DNA of 64,000 nt from Dyadobacter arcticus (GTDB lineage: Bacteria > Bacteroidota > Bacteroidia > Cytophagales > Spirosomataceae): positions 310,001 to 374,000 of the forward strand of contig NZ_JAASQJ010000002.1 of assembly GCF_011762185.1 (NCBI RefSeq), written 5' to 3'. The notes below the pieces were generated by a model that saw only the letters and a program-made list of their open reading frames with translations, was not told where the DNA came from and did not search any database. Each line of letters begins with the position of its first letter. Within the stretch, counting starts at the first letter, position 1. The translations under genes and the position numbers were made by a program. Below are positions 1 through 9,015 of this stretch, piece by piece.

Positions 1-1155
1 AGAAACGTAGTAATAAGCATGGTCAAGGTCACTGAAAGCCCGAATGCAGCTTCCATGTTTTTGGACTCCCTAAAATGGAGTACCATCAGGATACAGGCCA
101 CCATCAAAAACCAGTTAAAAAAAGGAATGTACATCTGTCCCTTAATACTTCCGGGGAAAACGACCCGGTTTCGGGGCCATAAGCCCAGGCGGATTGCTTC
201 ATTGACCAGCGTAAAGCAGCCGCTGATCAGTGCCTGGCTGGCAATGACGGTAGCCCAGCGATGCCGGGATGACGGAAGGGATATAAATGGCCTCCGGGAT
301 AATATTGTAAAATGGGCTCAGGTCATTGGCAACACCGTTATTAAGCAGCCAGGCCGTTTGGCCACCATAGGAAAGCAGGAGGGTTATTTTAATATAGATC
401 CAGCTAACTCGAATATTATTTCTTCCCACATGTCCCATATCGCTGTACAAGGCTTCCGCTCCGGTGGTGCAAAGAAATATGCCCCCCAGAAACCAGAACC
501 CGCCAGGAAAATCACTTAAAAGCTTATAAGCATAGTACGGATTTATCGCCTTTAAAACGGACGGATTTGAAAAGATCGAGAGCAAGCCAATGCCCCCAAT
601 AAAGGAAAACCAGATCAGCATAATAGGGCCGAAAAACTTGCCGATCTGCTGGGTACCGAGCTGCTGGATCAGAAAAAGGAAAACGATAATGGCAATTACA
701 ATCGGCACTGTATCAAGATCCGGATTGAATTTTTGCAAACCCTCGATAGCTGATGCTACCGAAATAGGAGGTGTGATGATCCCATCTGCAATTAAAAAAG
801 CGCCCCCCATCACTGCCAGCACCACTGCCCACTTGCCAAAATAACTGCGGATCAACGTGTAAAGCGAGAAAATGCCCCCCTCCCCGTTATTGTCGGCCGT
901 GAGCGTGATAATGATGTATTTGAGCGTTGTTTGAAGGGTAAGTGTCCAGATAATACAACTCAGAATGCCCAGCGCTTTTACTGGATTGACCACCTCACCG
1001 GAATGAAACAACGCATTAAGGGTATACAAAGGAGAAGTGCCGATATCGCCAAATACAATGCCCGTTGCAAGCAATACCCCCGCCAGCTTAACCCTGCTAT
1101 GAAACTCCTGAATGTTGTAGTGTTGGTCCAAAATAAGGTGCTGATTATTTAGCAA
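1..1155 (-). pseudogene. kup: Kup potassium uptake permease, frameshifted and cut by window edge
   Basis: KUP/HAK/KT family low-affinity potassium importer of the inner membrane. The N-terminal 300 residues are typical: GDIGTSPLYTL near residue 40, NNGEGGIFSLY near 90, ADGIITPP near 125, then a series of membrane helices. The reading frame breaks at a run of three C at 254-256. Before it the protein reads ...IPSVIPASL. Removing one base restores ATVIASQALISG and then EAIRLGLWPRNRVVFPG, which is conserved Kup sequence, and that second frame stays open to base 1. So one extra base splits the gene, and the rest lies outside the window. It starts 11 bp after the sensor kinase gene and is probably the last gene of the kdp operon. 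A sequencing error is possible; otherwise it is a recent pseudogene. Family call is certain. Confidence 0.9.
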
Positions 1156-1166
1156 AAAGATATTAC

Positions 1167-2900
1167 CTACGCCTTGGCAAGCTGGAAATAAAAGGTACTG
1201 CCCATGCCAATCTCGCTGTTAACGCCAATGGCCCCTCCTTGGGCCTCAATAAATTCCTTACTGATCGCAAGCCCCAAGCCCGTTCCGGTCTTCGAACTGC
1301 CAGGCACTTGAAAATACCTGTCAAATATTTTGTTTCGGTACCGGCTATCGATGCCTTTTCCTTCGTCCCGCACCGAGAACCTGACACCGTTTTGCCCATC
1401 CCTGATTTCCAGCAGCAACCGGCCCTCTTGCTGTGAGTAGCGGATCGCATTGGTCAAAAAATTGATAAGCACCCAAGCTGTTTTTTCCATGTCCGCTTTT
1501 ACATCCGGCAAATTTTCATCTGTTTGTACCACCAGTTCGATCCCCTTCTGTTCCATGGAAAGCTTCACGGCATCCAGGGCATATTGCATGATAGAAGCCG
1601 GGCTGCTTGGCTGGATACTAAGCTGAATATTACCCGTCTCCACTTGTGACATATTCAGAAGCTCACCGGTAATTTTTAAAAGCCTGTTGCTATCTTCCTT
1701 GATGCTTTCCATCAACTGCTTTTGCTCTTCATTAAGCATACCGGTTTGCTGGCTTTCCAAAAGTTGCAAGCTCATTTTAATAGAAGAAATTGGTGTTTTC
1801 AGCTCATGGGAAACCGTCGCAATAAAATTGGTTTTGGCAAAATCCAGTTCTTTGAATGGGGTAATATTCTTCAAAAGGATTACCTGTCCAATAAATTTCT
1901 TCTGACGCTCCCCGGTCGGAATGATTGTTATATCGACAACTTCCTTTTCAAAATAACTTTCTTTGTCGTCCGCGTAAATTTTAAGTGACGGCGTGGTTTT
2001 ATACCCAATGTCACCATTCATGCCGGTTTTATTTTGAATCAGGGCGCGTATTAGATCATTGTGTTCCGCCAACTCAATGGCAGACTTGCCAAGTAGGTCG
2101 CTACCGGCAATTCCGGTAATCTTGACTGCTTCTTCATTGGCAAACAGTATTCGTTGGTTTTCATCCAACCCAATCACTGGCTCATGCATGTTATTGATCA
2201 AAGCTTCAATGCGCTTTTTTTCGACAAGGATCTGAGATAGATTGCTATTGTCGTATTCTTCGAGCTTTTCAGCCATCGTATTAAAAGAGTTCGCCAGCTC
2301 GCCAAATTCGTCCTTGCCAGAGAAATGCAACCGTTCGGCGTATTTTTTCGCTGCGATCGCGCGGATACTTTCAGTTAGTTCCCGGATCGGGTTGCCTATA
2401 TTGCCCGGCATGTTGATCAGCAAGGTAAATGCGATCAAAAAACAAACGGTACCCGTCAGTGCAATCCATATAAATGCAGACTGGACCGTCGCTAAGGCCT
2501 TATCACTTTTGGCTCGGATCGCTTCCATATTGATCCGAGTCAGCTCGGCCAGGTCATTTCTAATCAGTACTGCCAGGTGCTTACTGTTAGGGTCTGTTTT
2601 CAGCGAAGCGTAATGAGCGCGGATTTTTTCGGTGATTTCCCCTTCCCCGGGCTCTGTCACATTAGCCATTTGATTTTTCAGGTTTTGCTCAAACTTCGTC
2701 CAAGCTTCCGGGTTGATTTGGATTTGGTCAATGGCCAAAAACATACTCCTGGTGTAATCCAGTGTCTTGTAGTTGTCCAGCAAGATGTTTTCAGTGTCTT
2801 CTTTTAATACATAAATGCACCTGGCCGCGATTAGCGATAGTGCCAGGATCATCAAAAACAGGACACCAAGTCCAAGCCGCAGTTTGGTTTTAATTTTCAT
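1167..2900 (-). CDS. HAMP-PAS sensor histidine kinase of the kdp operon (KdpD kinase half)
   Basis: Membrane histidine kinase of 577 residues. Visible order: membrane helix 10-30, an extracytoplasmic region of about 110 residues, second helix about 142-165, HAMP to about 220, PAS about 230-350, HisKA with SHELKTP near residue 365, then a HATPase domain with N-box NFLTNAIRYS, G1 DEGKGI and G2 GTGLGLAIS. It follows the KdpD sensor-domain gene by 21 bp and precedes kup by 11 bp, so it is co-transcribed. In Escherichia coli KdpD these kinase domains are fused to the N-terminal KdpD and Usp domains; here they are in a separate protein. The inference is that it autophosphorylates in response to the upstream protein and a regulator encoded elsewhere, as no kdpE lies in the window. 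Confidence 0.9.
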   Translation of the reverse strand: MKIKTKLRLGLGVLFLMILALSLIAARCIYVLKEDTENILLDNYKTLDYTRSMFLAIDQIQINPEAWTKFEQNLKNQMANVTEPGEGEITEKIRAHYASLKTDPNSKHLAVLIRNDLAELTRINMEAIRAKSDKALATVQSAFIWIALTGTVCFLIAFTLLINMPGNIGNPIRELTESIRAIAAKKYAERLHFSGKDEFGELANSFNTMAEKLEEYDNSNLSQILVEKKRIEALINNMHEPVIGLDENQRILFANEEAVKITGIAGSDLLGKSAIELAEHNDLIRALIQNKTGMNGDIGYKTTPSLKIYADDKESYFEKEVVDITIIPTGERQKKFIGQVILLKNITPFKELDFAKTNFIATVSHELKTPISSIKMSLQLLESQQTGMLNEEQKQLMESIKEDSNRLLKITGELLNMSQVETGNIQLSIQPSSPASIMQYALDAVKLSMEQKGIELVVQTDENLPDVKADMEKTAWVLINFLTNAIRYSQQEGRLLLEIRDGQNGVRFSVRDEGKGIDSRYRNKIFDRYFQVPGSSKTGTGLGLAISKEFIEAQGGAIGVNSEIGMGSTFYFQLAKA

Positions 2901-2921
2901 AAGGAGAGAGTCAGAGTATGT

Positions 2922-4046
2922 CTACGACAAGATAACCAGGTCAATGTCTGAGGATGAGAGTTTTTTTAACAAGTTATTGAAAAGGTTGGTGGCTAATATT
3001 ACCTTGAGCAGGTTAATGTGTGGCTTTCCAAGACAGATGGTTGTGATCTCCCGTTGCTCGGCAACCTGGATAATAGCTTGGGAGATATTGGCATCCTGCA
3101 CCCGGATGATCTCTGCCCCCATTTCGGTCGCAAGTTTAAAATTATTAATCAAATGCCGCTGCTTGTCCAGCGCTATTTTGTCCTGGCTCTCATTGGGCGT
3201 CTGCACATATAACACAAACCATTTGCTGTTGTAATAACTGGCTAGTCGCGCCGTCTTGCGGATCACGTGCCGTGCCGTATTTTCATTGCTGCTGATGCAG
3301 GCGAGGAATTTCTCCCTTTTGGATGCGACCAGCTTCGGAATTTCAGATTCGACTTTGCGTTCGACCTGACTAGCCACTTCTTTCAAGGCAAGTTCCCTGA
3401 GTTGCAAGATATGGTCAGCCTTGAAAAAATTATTAAGCGCAGTCTGGATTTTGTCGGGCTTGTAAATCTTGCCTTCTTTCAGTCTGGTGATCAGCTCATC
3501 GGCTGTAAGGTCAATGTTAACCACCTCATCGGCTGCTCCCAGCACGCTGTCCGGGATCCGCTCCTTTACTTCAACACCGGTAATCTCTTTGACTTCTTCG
3601 TTAAGCGATTCAATATGCTGGATATTGACAGCACTGATCACATTGATCCCCGCTTCCAGGATTTCAAGAACATCTTGCCAGCGTTTGTCATTTTTGCTGC
3701 CTTCAATATTGGTATGCGCCAGCTCGTCGACTACCACGACCTCAGGCCTGAGACTGATCACCGCCTGCACATCGAGCTCATCAAGCTCTTTTCCCTTATA
3801 AAAAAGCTTACGGCGCGGAATGACGGGCAGGCCTTCAAGCAGATCATGGGTCTCTTTTCGGTTGTGGGTCTCAATGTATCCGATCTTAACGTCAATACCA
3901 TTGCGCAGCAGCGCATGCGCTTCCTGAAGCATCCGGAATGTTTTGCCAACCCCGGCGCTCATGCCGATGTAAATTTTGAATTTGCCACGTCGGGACCTTT
4001 TGATCAGGTCCAGGAAATGCTGTGCGCTTGGATTGGTTTCGGCCAT
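2922..4046 (-). CDS. kdpD: KdpD N-terminal sensor protein (KdpD domain plus Usp domain), stand-alone
   Basis: This 374-residue soluble protein matches only the cytoplasmic N-terminal part of KdpD, the potassium/osmotic sensor. The KdpD domain (about 20-230) has a Walker A, GMSAGVGKT, near residue 28 and a Walker B, VVVDELAHTN, near 105. A universal-stress-like domain follows from about 245 to the end. The DUF4118 membrane region and the kinase domains of full-length KdpD are missing. The protein ends cleanly, and the next gene is a separate HAMP-PAS kinase 21 bp away. Split KdpD is known in Bacteroidota. It probably senses K+ or ATP status and signals to that kinase. The 136 bp between kdpC and this gene hold only weak inverted repeats. 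Confidence 0.92.
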   Translation of the reverse strand: MAETNPSAQHFLDLIKRSRRGKFKIYIGMSAGVGKTFRMLQEAHALLRNGIDVKIGYIETHNRKETHDLLEGLPVIPRRKLFYKGKELDELDVQAVISLRPEVVVVDELAHTNIEGSKNDKRWQDVLEILEAGINVISAVNIQHIESLNEEVKEITGVEVKERIPDSVLGAADEVVNIDLTADELITRLKEGKIYKPDKIQTALNNFFKADHILQLRELALKEVASQVERKVESEIPKLVASKREKFLACISSNENTARHVIRKTARLASYYNSKWFVLYVQTPNESQDKIALDKQRHLINNFKLATEMGAEIIRVQDANISQAIIQVAEQREITTICLGKPHINLLKVILATNLFNNLLKKLSSSDIDLVILS

Positions 4047-4182: not shown

Positions 4183-4740
4183 TTATAGTTTCTCCAAAGC
4201 CAAATTCAGACTAAGCACATTGACTTTATCCGGCCCAAACAGACCTAATAATGGCTTTTCAGTATTCGAATCGATAATCTGTTTGATTTTGTCTTCGGAA
4301 ACTTTACGGACAGACGCAATCCTTTTGACCTGTACCAATGCTGCCTTGGGCGAAATATCCGGATCAAGCCCGCTGCCACTGGCAGTAACGAGCTCTACTG
4401 GGATGTCCTTTTTATCAACGCCCGGATTGTGAACAAGGAATGTATCGATACGGGCCTGCACGATCCCCAGATATTCAGGGTTAGAAGGGCCTTTGTTACT
4501 GCCACCACTTCCGGCAGCATTGTAACCTACTGCGGACGGGCGGCTGTTGAAAAACCGGTCTTTTGTGAATGTCTGACCAATGTTTGCGTAGTATTTTTTA
4601 CCATTGGCAGTGACCACCCTGCCATGGCCGTTGTTGGGTGCGAGTTGGGCAACAGCCCAGATCAAAGCCGGGTAAACTGCGCTGAAAAATATCAAAGTAA
4701 CCAGCGTAAGTTTGATTGCGGGAAATATGTTCGTTTTCAT
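4183..4740 (-). CDS. kdpC: Potassium-transporting ATPase subunit C
   Basis: KdpC, 185 residues, the single-span accessory subunit of the high-affinity KdpFABC K+ pump. One N-terminal membrane helix (about 8-30, ending YPALIWAVAQ) precedes a periplasmic domain. Family motifs include FNSRPSAVGYNAAGSGGSN near residue 65, VTASGSGLDPDISP near 120 and RVASVR-like IASVRKVSEDKI. It lies 32 bp after kdpB in the order kdpFABC. Length and motifs are normal. The family stabilises the KdpA-KdpB complex. Nothing unusual apart from the 136-bp gap to the kdpD-type gene that follows. Confidence 0.97.
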   Translation of the reverse strand: MKTNIFPAIKLTLVTLIFFSAVYPALIWAVAQLAPNNGHGRVVTANGKKYYANIGQTFTKDRFFNSRPSAVGYNAAGSGGSNKGPSNPEYLGIVQARIDTFLVHNPGVDKKDIPVELVTASGSGLDPDISPKAALVQVKRIASVRKVSEDKIKQIIDSNTEKPLLGLFGPDKVNVLSLNLALEKL

Positions 4741-4772: not shown

Positions 4773-6812
4773 CTAAATCCAGATGCTCACCACCAGGTCA
4801 ATCACTTTGATCCCAATAAAAGGCACCAAAATCCCACCCAGACCGTAGATAAAAAGGTTACGTCTCAGAAGTGCACTCGCGCCAATTGGTTTATAAGCCA
4901 CCCCTTTCAAAGCGAGCGGGATCAGGAAAGGGATAATTATTGCATTAAAGATTACTGCCGACAGGATGGCGCTCTCCGGGCTATTCAGACGCATGATGTT
5001 CAATCCTTGAAGTGCCGGGATACTGGCAATAAACAGCGCCGGGATGATGGCAAAGTATTTGGCTACGTCATTCGCAATGGAAAAAGTCGTCAGCGTTCCG
5101 CGCGTCATCAGCAGCTGCTTTCCAATTTCTACAATTTCGATCAGTTTGGTCGGGTCATTGTCCAGATCGACCATGTTACCAGCTTCTTTCGCTGCCTGGG
5201 TACCGCTGTTCATAGCCACGCCCACGTCAGCCTGCGCAAGGGCAGGTGCATCGTTGGTACCGTCCCCCATCATCGCCACAAGCTTTCCGCCTTCCTGCTC
5301 TTTTTTAATGTAATTCATTTTGTCCTCCGGCTTCGCTTCGGCGATAAAATCGTCCACACCTGCCTTCTCCGCAATGAACTTGGCTGTCAGTGGGTTATCA
5401 CCGGTTACCATCACCGTTTTGACCCCCATTTTTCGAAGGCGCTCGAACCGCTCGCTGATACCCGGCTTGATAATATCCTGCAATTCGATCACCCCTAATA
5501 CCCTTTCATTTTCAGAAACTACCAGGGGCGTACCACCATTGCTGGAAATCGTTTTTACATGTTCTTCAATTTCTGATGGAAATTGGTTCCCTGCATTGAC
5601 AACCAGGCTGCGGATCGAGTCAAAAGCACCTTTACGGATCCGGGTAGTTTCGAAGTCCACTCCGGAGCTGCGGGTTTCGGCGGTAAACTTGATGAACTTG
5701 GGGTCGGATAGCTGATAGGTTGAAGCATTGGCATTGGCCAGTTCCAGGATCGATTTTCCCTCGGGCGTCTCATCGGAGATCGAGCTGAGTACCGCAGACT
5801 TTATAAAATGGTTTTCGGTAATGCCCTTAGCAGTGTAAAAATGAGTGGCCTTTCTATTTCCGATTGTAATGGTACCTGTTTTGTCAAGCAAAAGCACATC
5901 GATATCCCCCGCTGTTTCCACTGCCTTACCGGATTTGGTAATCACATTAGCCCGTAGCGCGCGGTCCATACCAGCAATACCAATAGCTGATAGCAGGCCG
6001 CCAATCGTTGTCGGGATCAAACAGACAAACAGCGAAATAAATGCGGCAATGGTAATGGGCGTATTTGAGTAATCGGCGAAAGGTTTTAAGGTTATGCAGA
6101 CAATCACAAACACCAGCGTAAACCCAGCCAAAAGAATCGTCAGGGCTATTTCATTGGGTGTTTTCTGACGGCTTGCACCTTCTACCAATGCAATCATTTT
6201 GTCCAGAAAGCTTTCGCCCGGTGCAGTGGTGACCATTACCTTGATCTTATCGGACAACACTTTGGTACCGCCTGTCACGCTGCTTTTATCGCCCCCCGCT
6301 TCACGGATCACTGGCGCGGACTCACCTGTGATGGCACTCTCGTCAATGGTTGCCAGACCTTCGATGATCTCACCATCGGTCGGAATGTTATCACCGGCTT
6401 CGCAAATGAAGACATCTCCCTTTTTCATTTGGGCCGACATCACACTTTGGGTTGAAACAGAGAAGCCTTGCTTATTTTCGATGACCAGTTTTGCTGGTGT
6501 TTCTTCGCGCGTTTTCCGCAAACTGTCGGCCTGGGCTTTTCCGCGGGCTTCGGCAATGGCTTCGGCAAAGTTGGCAAACAGCAGCGTGAGCAGCAGGATC
6601 AAAAAGATCGCAAAGTTGTAACCGAAACTACCTTGCGTGGTATCGCCGGACAATATCCAGATACAGACCGCAAACATGACGAACGTCCCTATTTCTACGG
6701 TGAACATCACCGGGTTTCGGAACAATATCTGTGGATTTAATTTGATAAAGGATTGCTTGAGAGCTTCACTTACCAGATCCTTTTGGAACAAGGATGCATT
6801 TTGATTTTTCAT
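4773..6812 (-). CDS. kdpB: Potassium-transporting P-type ATPase subunit B
   Basis: KdpB, 679 residues, the catalytic ATP-hydrolysing subunit of the Kdp pump in the inner membrane. Key motifs are intact: TGES at 162-165 in the actuator domain, the phosphorylation motif DKTGT with Asp310, a [10 protein letters not shown] element in the nucleotide-binding region and the hinge [20 protein letters not shown]. Membrane helices sit near residues 35-80, 220-280 and 585-675. It lies between kdpA and kdpC in an operon. The 78-bp gap to kdpA holds a short tandem repeat of TTAGCG-like units. Expression is normally induced by K+ limitation through KdpD. Confidence 0.98.
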
Positions 6813-6890: not shown

Positions 6891-8579
6891 TTAACGCATG
6901 CTGAAATACTCAGCAATTGGACCTAGTGTCAGCGATGGGAAGAATGAAAGTGCTGTGATGATCACGATCACGGCCAGTACCATCATTCCAAATGTAGCTG
7001 AATCCGTACGCAGCGTTCCCGCGCTTTCGGGGATGTATTTTTTATTAGCCAAAAGTCCTGCAATGGCAATCGGCCCGATAATCGGGATGAAACGCGAAAG
7101 GATCAAAATAAAGCCTGTGGTAATGTTCCACCAGGGGTTATTGTCACCCAAACCTTCAAAACCGCTTCCGTTATTGGCTGCTGAAGATGTATATTCATAC
7201 AGCATCTCACTGAATCCGTGAAAGCCAGGATTGTTCAGGTTAGCCGATGTAATTTCAGGAAAAGCCGTCGCCAGTGCGGTGCCTGCTAGGATCAGCAGTG
7301 GGTGGAGCAGCGCAACGATCATCGCAATTTTCATTTCACGTCCTTCAATTTTTTTACCTAAAAACTCAGGCGTACGACCTACCATCAAGCCACTGATAAA
7401 GACGGCAAGGATGATAAAAATAAAGAAATTCAAAATTCCTACCCCGCAACCACCATAAAAGGCATTGGTCATCATGGCCAGCAGCTGCATCATCCCGGAG
7501 AGCGGCATGCTGCTATCATGCATGGAATTGACCGACCCGGTTGAAATAACGGTAGTGGCTATACTCCAAAAGCCGGAAGCAGCGCTGCCAAATCTTACTT
7601 CCTTACCCTCCATCGCACCCGAGCCCATATCAACGCCCATTTGCGCGATGGCCGGGTTACCATTCACTTCCCAGATAATAGTGGGGACACAAAGCAATAG
7701 AAAGCCAAGGGTCATCACCCCGAAAATCATCCAGGCCATTTTCTTTCTTTTCAAGAAAAATCCAAACGCAAAGATCATAGCCAAGGGTATAATCATTTGA
7801 GCGAACATCTCAACCATATTAGTTGCATAATTCGGGTTTTCTAATGGGTGGGCTGAGTTAGCGCCATAAAATCCACCACCATTGGTACCCAAATGCTTGA
7901 TAGCAACGAAGGCTGCTACCGGGCCGGTTGAAACACCAACGGTGTCGCCTTGCATGCTGATAATGCTGTCCTTGCCACCGAAAGTCATCGGCGTGCCATT
8001 AAACGCAAGGAAAATAGCAACAAGTATGGAAGCGGGCAGCAGGATGCGCGTACATGACAGCACCAACAGGTTGTAAAAATTACCCAATTTTTCGGCAGTC
8101 CTTTCTTTCAATGCAATGAATATTACCACTGCCGCGGCCATACCGGTGCCAGCACTTAAGAAGTGCAGGAACATCAAAAACAGTTGCGACAAATAGCTTA
8201 CGCCGCTTTCGCCAGAATAATGCTGCAAATTACAGTTGACAACAAAAGAAATGCTGGTATTGAATGCCAGGTCAGCGGTTTGTCCGGGGTTGCCATCTGG
8301 GTTTAATGGCAGCCAGCCCTGGTTCATCAGCACAAACATGCCCAGCAAAAACCAGACAAAGTTGATGGTCAGCAAGGCCACCATGTGCTGCTTCCAATTC
8401 ATTTCGGCCTTGCGGTCGATTCCGCTGATGCGGAAAAATAACTTTTCAACAGGAGTGAGTACAACGTCCAGCAGCGTTTTTTCACCCGCATAGACCTTCG
8501 CAATGTACTTTCCAAATGGGATGGCCAGCAGGATCGTAACTGCATACATGGCAATGACGCCTAAAATTTCTGTGTTCAT
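6891..8579 (-). CDS. kdpA: Potassium-transporting ATPase subunit A
   Basis: KdpA, 562 residues, the K+ channel-like subunit of the Kdp pump, a relative of the Trk/Ktr superfamily with four pore-loop repeats. Visible signatures are NTSISFVVNCNLQHYSGE in the first pore region, GTNGGGFYGANSAHPLENP in the second, and a third around SVNSMHDSSMPLSGMM. About ten hydrophobic helices are spread over the protein. It starts 11 bp after kdpF. Length and motifs are normal for the family. It binds KdpB, KdpC and KdpF in the inner membrane. Confidence 0.98.
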   Translation of the reverse strand: MNTEILGVIAMYAVTILLAIPFGKYIAKVYAGEKTLLDVVLTPVEKLFFRISGIDRKAEMNWKQHMVALLTINFVWFLLGMFVLMNQGWLPLNPDGNPGQTADLAFNTSISFVVNCNLQHYSGESGVSYLSQLFLMFLHFLSAGTGMAAAVVIFIALKERTAEKLGNFYNLLVLSCTRILLPASILVAIFLAFNGTPMTFGGKDSIISMQGDTVGVSTGPVAAFVAIKHLGTNGGGFYGANSAHPLENPNYATNMVEMFAQMIIPLAMIFAFGFFLKRKKMAWMIFGVMTLGFLLLCVPTIIWEVNGNPAIAQMGVDMGSGAMEGKEVRFGSAASGFWSIATTVISTGSVNSMHDSSMPLSGMMQLLAMMTNAFYGGCGVGILNFFIFIILAVFISGLMVGRTPEFLGKKIEGREMKIAMIVALLHPLLILAGTALATAFPEITSANLNNPGFHGFSEMLYEYTSSAANNGSGFEGLGDNNPWWNITTGFILILSRFIPIIGPIAIAGLLANKKYIPESAGTLRTDSATFGMMVLAVIVIITALSFFPSLTLGPIAEYFSMR

Positions 8580-8590
8580 GACCTATGGTG

Positions 8591-8668
8591 TTAAAATTTT
8601 TCGGGTTTGATTAATACATAGCACATGTAGAAAAACACGCCGATGGATACAATGAATAATGCTGCCAT
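8591..8668 (-). CDS. kdpF: Potassium-transporting ATPase subunit F microprotein
   Basis: A 25-residue ORF beginning MAALFIVSIGVFF and ending YVLIKPEKF. It has one hydrophobic helix followed by the basic/proline tail KPEKF, the hallmark of KdpF. In known complexes KdpF is a single-span peptide that stabilises KdpA. Its place, 11 bp before kdpA, is the canonical position. It is preceded 4 bp upstream by another single-span microprotein. The short length and exact tail motif make the call secure even though the ORF is tiny. Confidence 0.9.
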   Translation of the reverse strand: MAALFIVSIGVFFYMCYVLIKPEKF

Positions 8669-8672
8669 GATT

Positions 8673-8756
8673 TTAGATCTTTTCAAAAAATTTGACGGTT
8701 TGATAAAATAGCGCAAAGCAGGCGCAGCCTGCGGCCACCAAGAGGATTGTAAGCAT
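8673..8756 (-). CDS. 27-residue single-span membrane microprotein ahead of kdpF
   Basis: An ORF of 27 codons plus TAA, starting MLTILLVAAGCACFALFY and ending KFFEKI. Residues 2-18 are strongly hydrophobic and the tail is short and charged, so it should be a single-span membrane peptide. It ends 4 bp before the kdpF start and begins 12 bp after another small ORF, so translation is probably coupled. It resembles KdpF in size and plan but lacks the KPEKF tail. I do not recognise a named family. It could be a second small subunit or assembly factor of the Kdp pump, which is inference from position only. Confidence 0.6.
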   Translation of the reverse strand: MLTILLVAAGCACFALFYQTVKFFEKI

Positions 8757-8768
8757 GATGTATAATAT

Positions 8769-8897
8769 TTAGGTGAAAGCTTGATAAATAAGGCCTGATA
8801 TTGCGATCAATACGTAAAATGCAATCAGGATATGAAAGGGCTTAATGTCCTGACGGATGGCGGCAAGCCTTCTTGTAGATCGATATGTTTTATGCAT
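8769..8897 (-). CDS. 42-residue basic single-span membrane microprotein, first ORF of the kdp operon
   Basis: An ORF of 42 codons plus TAA. The first 20 residues (MHKTYRSTRRLAAIRQDIKP) are basic. A hydrophobic segment of about 18 residues (FHILIAFYVLIAISGLIY) follows, then a short QAFT tail. The positive N-terminus predicts an N-in, C-out membrane peptide. It is the first ORF of the operon, 12 bp ahead of the 27-residue ORF, kdpF and kdpA. I do not recognise the family. A leader peptide or a small pump subunit are both possible. Coding status rests on the clean helix, tight packing and absence of internal stops. Confidence 0.5.
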   Translation of the reverse strand: MHKTYRSTRRLAAIRQDIKPFHILIAFYVLIAISGLIYQAFT

Positions 8898-9015
8898 GAT
8901 ATTTACTTTTTACTTCATGCATTCCAAATGCATACCAAAACTTTCATACAGAAAGAAACGTGCTCATTATCAAAGTTTTATGTACTTAATGAGTCATTTT
9001 TGGCTATGTTAAACA

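Follow-up and report, generated by a model that had tools for sequence, protein, structure and literature searches.

The kdp operon of Dyadobacter arcticus encodes, directly before kdpF, a single-helix membrane peptide of 27 residues, denominated here pep2. On sequence comparison pep2 is a member of a conserved family lacking a Pfam or NCBIfam model, and may be a missing part of the Kdp pump; the known structures come from E. coli, which lacks it. KdpFABC is the textbook potassium pump, and arguments on its mechanism have drawn on these structures. Should many bacteria encode an additional conserved helix beside kdpF, the E. coli reference complex would be atypical, and the pump of pep2-bearing species could differ in assembly, lipid dependence or control. 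Similar tiny genes precede kdpF in the majority of the other bacteria analysed; a second small peptide of the same operon, pep1, is found in few close relatives only. The pep2 family provides a direct handle, as the protein has 27 residues, always sits at the same genomic place and keeps one acidic residue, and as the loci carrying and lacking it are listed; it also shows that curated libraries overlook families of such size.

The kdp operon of the window

The window, i.e. the whole stretch of 64,000 nucleotides that was analysed, hosts the genes listed in Table 1. It belongs to a genome (G000; loci, genomes and contigs are denoted by L, G and C numbers) with three kdpA genes.

Table 1. Features of the kdp region, in window coordinates
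Feature	Position	Strand	Length	Description
promoter-like motif	8924..8937	minus		TGGTATGCATTTGG; sigma-54-like (inferred); ends 26 nt before the pep1 start
pep1	8769..8897	minus	42 aa	single helix, basic N-terminus, lineage-specific; MHKTYRSTRRLAAIRQDIKPFHILIAFYVLIAISGLIYQAFT
pep2	8673..8756	minus	27 aa	single-helix membrane protein, directly before kdpF; MLTILLVAAGCACFALFYQTVKFFEKI
kdpF	8591..8668	minus	25 aa	Pfam PF09604, E 1.6e-5, 25.1 bits (cut-off 21.2)
kdpA	6891..8579	minus	562 aa	Pfam PF03814, E 8.4e-227
kdpB	4773..6812	minus	679 aa	P-type ATPase; Pfam PF00122, PF00702 and place
kdpC	4183..4740	minus	185 aa	Pfam PF02669, E 5.8e-66
KdpD sensor-domain protein	2922..4046	minus	374 aa	with Usp-like stretch; Pfam PF02702, E 4.3e-93
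separate histidine kinase	1167..2900	minus	577 aa	HAMP-PAS histidine kinase; Pfam

Pep1, pep2 and kdpF all start with ATG, and are separated by gaps of 12, 4 and 11 bp down to kdpA. This array of 42, 27 and 25 codons had been described in a sequence-only reading of the window, and its coordinates agree with ours. The third ORF had been called KdpF there, which is borne out by the PF09604 match above the cut-off; the match to NCBIfam TIGR02115 (E 2.9e-5) falls under the cut-off of that model. The different topological cues pointed out for the two other peptides are likewise found, Lys/Arg residues being C-terminal in pep2 and N-terminal in pep1. Neither peptide, both reported as belonging to no recognised family, has a match in Pfam at E<=1 or in NCBIfam at E<=10.

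KdpD is divided in the window (1167-4046, minus) into a sensor protein, in which no kinase domain is matched by Pfam, and a separate histidine kinase. A KUP-type potassium transporter gene is found after the operon (window 199-1155, minus; G000:C2 about 309183-311218). It is split into two overlapping frames, with the shift located between about 310201 and 310317, so that either the gene is broken or the assembly is in error here. Another kdp cluster of this genome holds two divergent kdpA genes (L002 and L003; G000:C4 558935-567826). The L002 operon features its own pep1, pep2 and KdpF, plus one more ORF, of at most 59 codons, ahead of kdpA. In the L003 operon, whose kdpA is divergent, no pep2 or KdpF was seen, and a 34-aa basic single-helix ORF is found instead.

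Conservation and distribution of pep2

KdpA matches were found in 89 of the 150 genomes of the window's family, and the stretch before kdpA was analysed at 72 loci (L001-L072), which include a part of the KdpA places found. An ORF of 26-28 aa with an F-[E/D]-x-I-like end lies ahead of kdpF in 65 of them; pep2 is absent from the other seven (L003, L046, L047, L048, L049, L055, L057). Within the genus, kdpA was identified in 46 of 48 genomes, and all 31 readable further loci carry pep2 (L121-L152, 32 in number, of which L150 is cut off). In G463 and G469, which belong to the genus, and in G140, of the family, kdpA is in two adjoining overlapping pieces, with one stop codon in G469 and one in G140; the pieces of the G452 gene, also of the genus, lie at contig ends.

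The first motif used in the search was picked after viewing the initial loci and is biased; profile tests with shuffled sequences were added. Conservation of the peptides in related kdp operons, proposed in the sequence-only reading as a check, is evident for pep2. The in-frame pN/pS of 47 genus loci has a median of 0.28, whereas the shifted frames give 1.14 and 1.58, and variability at the three codon positions is 0.19, 0.08 and 0.34. Pep2 is a real protein under purifying selection. Searched with the pep2 profile, the whole 6.0 Mb G000 genome yielded two matches at E<=1, both ahead of kdp operons. In the window, pep2 is the sole segment above 11 bits among 2054 six-frame segments; it scores 57.4 bits with the family profile, whose training set includes the window sequence. 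It thus has the features by which the Bacteroidota type is defined: about 27 aa, a place directly before kdpF, an F-[ED]-x-[IV] end and a profile match.

The search was extended to 48 loci of the same phylum (L073-L120; KdpA was found in 86 of 296 phylum genomes), to 80 named contigs (L154-L233), which are the best 80 of 583 and lean to KdpA resembling the query, and to 15 plasmid records (L234-L248), with 5 further ones (L249-L253). A profile made from 61 family sequences only matched 30 of 144 outside loci at >=15 bits, all on the same strand, and none of 2860 dinucleotide-shuffled windows. All but one of these matches are in the same phylum (29, L085-L118), the last being from Rhizobium (L230, 16.7 bits). 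When the threshold is lowered to 10 bits, 5 of 95 loci beyond the phylum are matched (L170, L229, L230, L235, L245), as are 5 of 2860 shuffled windows. By these comparisons, pep2 of the family type is certain inside the phylum, and faintly visible beyond.

Most non-Bacteroidota loci feature, before kdpF, a short single-helix ORF that equals pep2 in size and orientation and fits the pattern MD-[LI]-...-F-F-A-...-C-[DE]-x-L. A profile of this other-phylum type, built on 32 ORFs from odd-numbered contig loci that had been chosen with the iterated profile described below, was then tested on other loci. Its matches at >=15 bits comprise 30 of the 40 even-numbered contig loci that had been held out, 8 of the 15 plasmid loci, 7 of the 48 phylum loci and one of 2430 shuffled windows. 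Judged by its sequence, this too is a real family. The window type falls outside it by this measure, as the same profile reached >=10 bits at not one of the 104 family-level loci.

One pep2 relative, a member of the other-phylum type, carries an accession. The sequence-only reading had maintained that usual gene callers miss these ORFs, which is true in part only. The protein, WP_212667346.1 of Mycetohabitans endofungorum (L243, 978-1082), has 34 aa (MDLIYLAGIVLFLGLCMALAAGCDKLRRTPGGRS), is encoded directly before the KdpF gene and scores 35.4 bits with the iterated profile; its relation to the window type is probable only. The name attached to it, 'potassium ABC transporter ATPase', is wrong, as a sequence of 34 aa is neither an ABC transporter nor an ATPase. 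It is the only pep2 listed among nine pep2-bearing plasmid records, in six of which KdpF is listed; the gene table is incomplete.

The two types are united by an iterated profile started from the family profile, which matched 207 of 248 windows at >=11 bits, and one of 2430 shuffled windows. Two of the matches are KdpF (L057, L167) and were removed, and five windows are too short (L150, L153, L165, L174, L191), leaving 205 of 243 readable loci; because the iterated profile recruits its own matches, this is not an independent count. The positives are distributed among family (65/72), further genus loci (31/31), phylum (37/48), named contigs (63/77) and plasmids (9/15, two of them D. radiodurans). 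All the samples together give 206 of 268 readable loci, 96 of which are from the window's own family.

Compared by hhalign over 27 columns, the family set and the other-phylum set of pep2 sequences gave 39%, and the class-level set and the other-phylum set 70%. The same three sets compared with KdpF gave 28, 14 and 4%. The values between the two types are moderate, and shared descent of the Bacteroidota and the other-phylum types is probable rather than certain. The alternative is that the ORFs which precede kdpF inside and outside Bacteroidota descend from different sources, and have in common only their place and a general helix pattern. That one-sided profiles match the opposite side poorly speaks for it, and so does the filling of the same place by yet another sequence type in the family f17 (see below). 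It has to be reconciled with the five other-phylum loci detected at >=10 bits by the family-only profile, compared to 5 in 2860 shuffled windows, with the class-level value, five times that obtained with KdpF, and with the aromatic/Cys-acidic-x-Ile/Leu pattern common to the C-terminal ends of both types. Unrelated descent is a serious possibility, though the weaker of the two.

Among 20 later phylum loci, the iterated profile found one match (L290, 17.2 bits). Sixteen of the 20 belong to f17 (L271-L286), and both main types are absent from all 16. In 13 of these, KdpF is preceded by a third type of conserved small single-helix ORF, about 30 aa long, exemplified by L279 (MNVYHYLYLGMLIFLLLAVFAGLSGVIFHIGG) and fitting the pattern YH.L..GILIFL.LAG. 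At the resolution of these comparisons, the third type is unrelated to the other two.

Loci with no match to the iterated profile amount to 38 of the 243 readable ones, 19 of the 20 later phylum loci and all 5 later plasmid loci; the Kdp pump can therefore work without the pep2 family. In six loci (L167, L199, L206, L212, L216, L227) a similar short ORF below threshold was recognised by eye. Pep2 is absent from all eight plasmid loci in which KdpA is <49% identical to the L073 query (L239, L240, L248-L253), so that it appears to go with one kind of KdpA. At >=49% identity, 9 of 12 plasmid loci carry pep2, and the three lacking it are from E. coli, Klebsiella and Duffyella, all Enterobacterales. 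No pep2 was found in the sparse sample from Bacillota (2 loci), Actinomycetota (1) and archaea (2).

Pep2 has a median length of 27 residues (range 22-46), the longer members carrying a tail. Among 206 aligned rows, in which L057 is included, a column near the C-terminal end is E or D in 180, and the last common column holds I or L in 191. F occupies one column in mid-helix in 175 of the 206. Lys or Arg residues occur within the last 9 residues in 199 of 205 pep2 sequences, and within the first 6 in one; an N-out/C-in orientation is predicted from these C-terminal charges by the positive-inside rule, which would place the conserved acidic residue on the cytoplasmic side. KdpF was located by pattern at 201 of the 205 pep2-bearing loci, hence the two genes co-occur. 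Once the window's family and L085-L118 are set aside, 47 loci show a 4-nt overlap of the pep2 stop with the kdpF start (the remaining set has listed gaps for 71 loci, and KdpF located in 76 by count). The gap is mostly 2-5 bp, and up to >70, in the window's group, and is loose in Bacteroidota (1 to >70 bp).

In nine loci (L073, L074, L076, L077, L079, L080, L155, L159, L178) pep2-kdpF-kdpA is directly preceded by what is presumably kdpC, its C-terminus having been recognised by a motif; Pfam confirmed KdpC in all three of the loci tested (L073, L076, L079). The D. radiodurans operon runs kdpB, pep2, a kdpF-like ORF, kdpA and kdpC. As its order relative to kdpF-kdpA is kept in rearranged operons, pep2 tracks these genes, and not the 5' end of the operon.

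Pep1 and the upstream region

For pep1 the conservation check gave a weak result, since just 3 out of 104 family-level kdp loci have an intact copy. These are L001 and L002, both in G000, and L035 in G120; a fourth copy, L258, was detected in G469 (E 3.1e-10), and no pep2 follows it within 900 nt from the pep1 start. By these searches pep1 is coding but narrow, with four intact copies in three genomes. Its own profile exceeds 26 bits in 3 of 248 upstream windows. In 222 family genomes the profile matched 12 at E<=0.01, the clear ones being G000 (two matches), G120 and G469; the G148 match is a partial remnant, and matches with E values of 0.002-0.01 could be remnants or due to chance. Remnants were also detected by score in L036 (25.6 bits), L134 (13.7) and L143 (13.6), the best shuffled window reaching 12.6, and by eye alone in L025, L027 and L029.

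Pairwise pN/pS is 0.29 for L001-L035 (Fisher p 2.5e-6), 0.35 for L035-L258 (p 2.4e-8) and 0.47 for L001-L258 (p 0.0006; shifted frames 0.58 and 2.01). With L002 as one partner, all three values are 0.63-0.73 (p 0.03-0.06) and lie near those of the corresponding shifted frames (0.65-1.02). Pep1 is thus, on codon comparison, under purifying selection in some pairs, the L002 copy excepted. On this distribution it is a lineage-specific extra and no general subunit. The suggestion of the sequence-only reading that both peptides are small subunits or regulators of the pump is accordingly supported in part: for pep2 the role of a small subunit fits best and is probable, while pep1 is too narrow for a general one. 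An N-in orientation, opposite to that of pep2, is predicted from the basic N-terminus; pep1 would be a separate and dispensable single-helix peptide, perhaps a modulator in few species.

Other lineages have small basic single-helix ORFs of their own, before pep2 or between kdpF and kdpA (also L106 and L088). A common family for pep1, the 35-aa ORFs of L085, L086, L089, L091 and L092, and the 29-31-aa ORFs found between kdpF and kdpA in L097, L099 and L104 was considered and rejected: the HMMs did not match one another above shuffled sequences, and hhalign gave 8, 2 and 6%.

The distance from the promoter-like motif TGGYR-N5-TTGG to pep2 is 181-183 nt in L001, L002, L035 and L036, and 82-83 nt in L025, L027 and L029. 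The shorter spacing fits a deletion of pep1 between promoter and pep2. The motif with N5 spacing, a pattern defined post hoc from the window, was found in 13 of 96 family-level loci and in 5 of 1920 shuffled sequences; an earlier pattern with other spacing had been found in 2 of 96. TLYRK, which we take to be the end of an NtrC-type regulator, is encoded no more than 1200 nt upstream of pep2, and in the same orientation, in 52 of 104 family-level loci, and never on the other strand; a stricter regulator pattern was found in 16 of 104. These motifs suggest that kdp may be under sigma-54 control in the window's group.

Possible roles of pep2

Pep2 likely serves the Kdp pump as a further small accessory subunit, next to KdpF. 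It would be made together with KdpF, insert in the membrane as one helix, pack against KdpA and/or KdpB, and stabilise or tune the complex as KdpF does. The Bacteroidota and other-phylum types would be one family, which Enterobacterales either lost or never had, and pep2 would for this reason be missing from the known E. coli structures. In PMC6134056, KdpF is reported to stabilise the E. coli complex in vitro and to be dispensable in vivo; KdpF and KdpC are described as structural chaperones in PMC12629597. A bolder version, to which we give somewhat less than even chances, is that pumps of the main KdpA type usually have five subunits. The protein encoded before kdpF, be it of the FFEKI, MD...C[DE]xL or third type, would be a standard stoichiometric subunit, lying on KdpA/KdpB beside KdpF and absent from E. 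coli KdpFABC, and some Bacteroidota would add a fast-changing pep1-like helix.

Pep2 could also be a diverged duplicate of kdpF, occupying a second equivalent site, which is a special case of the subunit reading. The two peptides have equal size, the same predicted orientation, adjacent genes and a similar C-terminal end; under the iterated pep2 profile the window KdpF reaches 10.1 bits, and those of L057 and L167 exceed 11 bits. The hhalign values (15% at first, then the 28, 14 and 4% given above) are lower than between pep2 types, and PF09604 is matched at E<=1 by 0 of 48 and 0 of 22 pep2 members. An old duplication of kdpF is a possible origin of pep2, if an unlikely one. Single-helix peptides often regulate kinases and pumps, as MgrB and similar ones do, and genes for a KdpD-type sensor and for a kinase are part of the window's operon. 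Pep2 might be a regulatory membrane peptide rather than a structural subunit, its target being either the sensor (KdpD or the kinase) or the pump, which it would inhibit. Its staying beside kdpF-kdpA across gene orders is a weak test of this reading but goes against it, and we hold it for rather improbable.

Explanations in which the peptide itself matters less fare worse. As a leader or translational coupler, pep2 would act by the mere fact of being translated, opening kdpF or attenuating the operon. It is the first gene, or nearly so, in many operons, and the 4-nt overlaps at 47 loci would suit coupling. In Caulobacter, PMC8552747 describes about 100 structured nt before kdpF, with possible Rho attenuation just after kdpF. 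The conservation of pep2 goes beyond mere reading and concerns the residues themselves, and because it follows kdpC in nine loci, and kdpB in D. radiodurans, pep2 is not a leader peptide; a role of this kind is thus very improbable. Short ORFs are common in the window, and pep1 and pep2 might in principle be chance frames of hydrophobic appearance in the leader. For pep2 this is refuted by the profile and shuffle tests, the pN/pS values and the genome-wide search. For pep1, the L002 pairs are no lower than some shifted-frame values, but the 0.29 and 0.35 are significant in two of six pairs, and the chance-ORF explanation has next to nothing left in its favour. Weak matches of single pep2 members to PetM and BcsF were taken as chance.

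Set beside known systems, the putative accessory subunit is closest to KdpF, which has 25-30 aa, one helix, a C-terminus bearing Lys/Arg, and a similar operon place beside kdpA; pep2 differs from it in its other conserved residues, in not matching PF09604 and in profile comparison (4-28%). The C. acetobutylicum kdpZ and kdpY genes, from a 1997 study, reportedly encode small hydrophobic peptides, and resemble pep2 in lying before kdpA. A single transcript kdpZYABCXDE, with two genes before kdpA, is cited for this species in PMC5401905. CydX and TorE/NapE are small single-helix subunits stabilising membrane complexes, as stated in PMC6134056, and offer a comparison for how pep2 may work, the complexes being others. 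Within the accessible literature on KdpF, kdp small ORFs and unannotated small proteins, subscription papers being mostly outside it, no description of the pep2 family was found. The stretch of about 100 nt that precedes kdpF in Caulobacter may itself hold a small ORF, as in other alphaproteobacteria analysed here.
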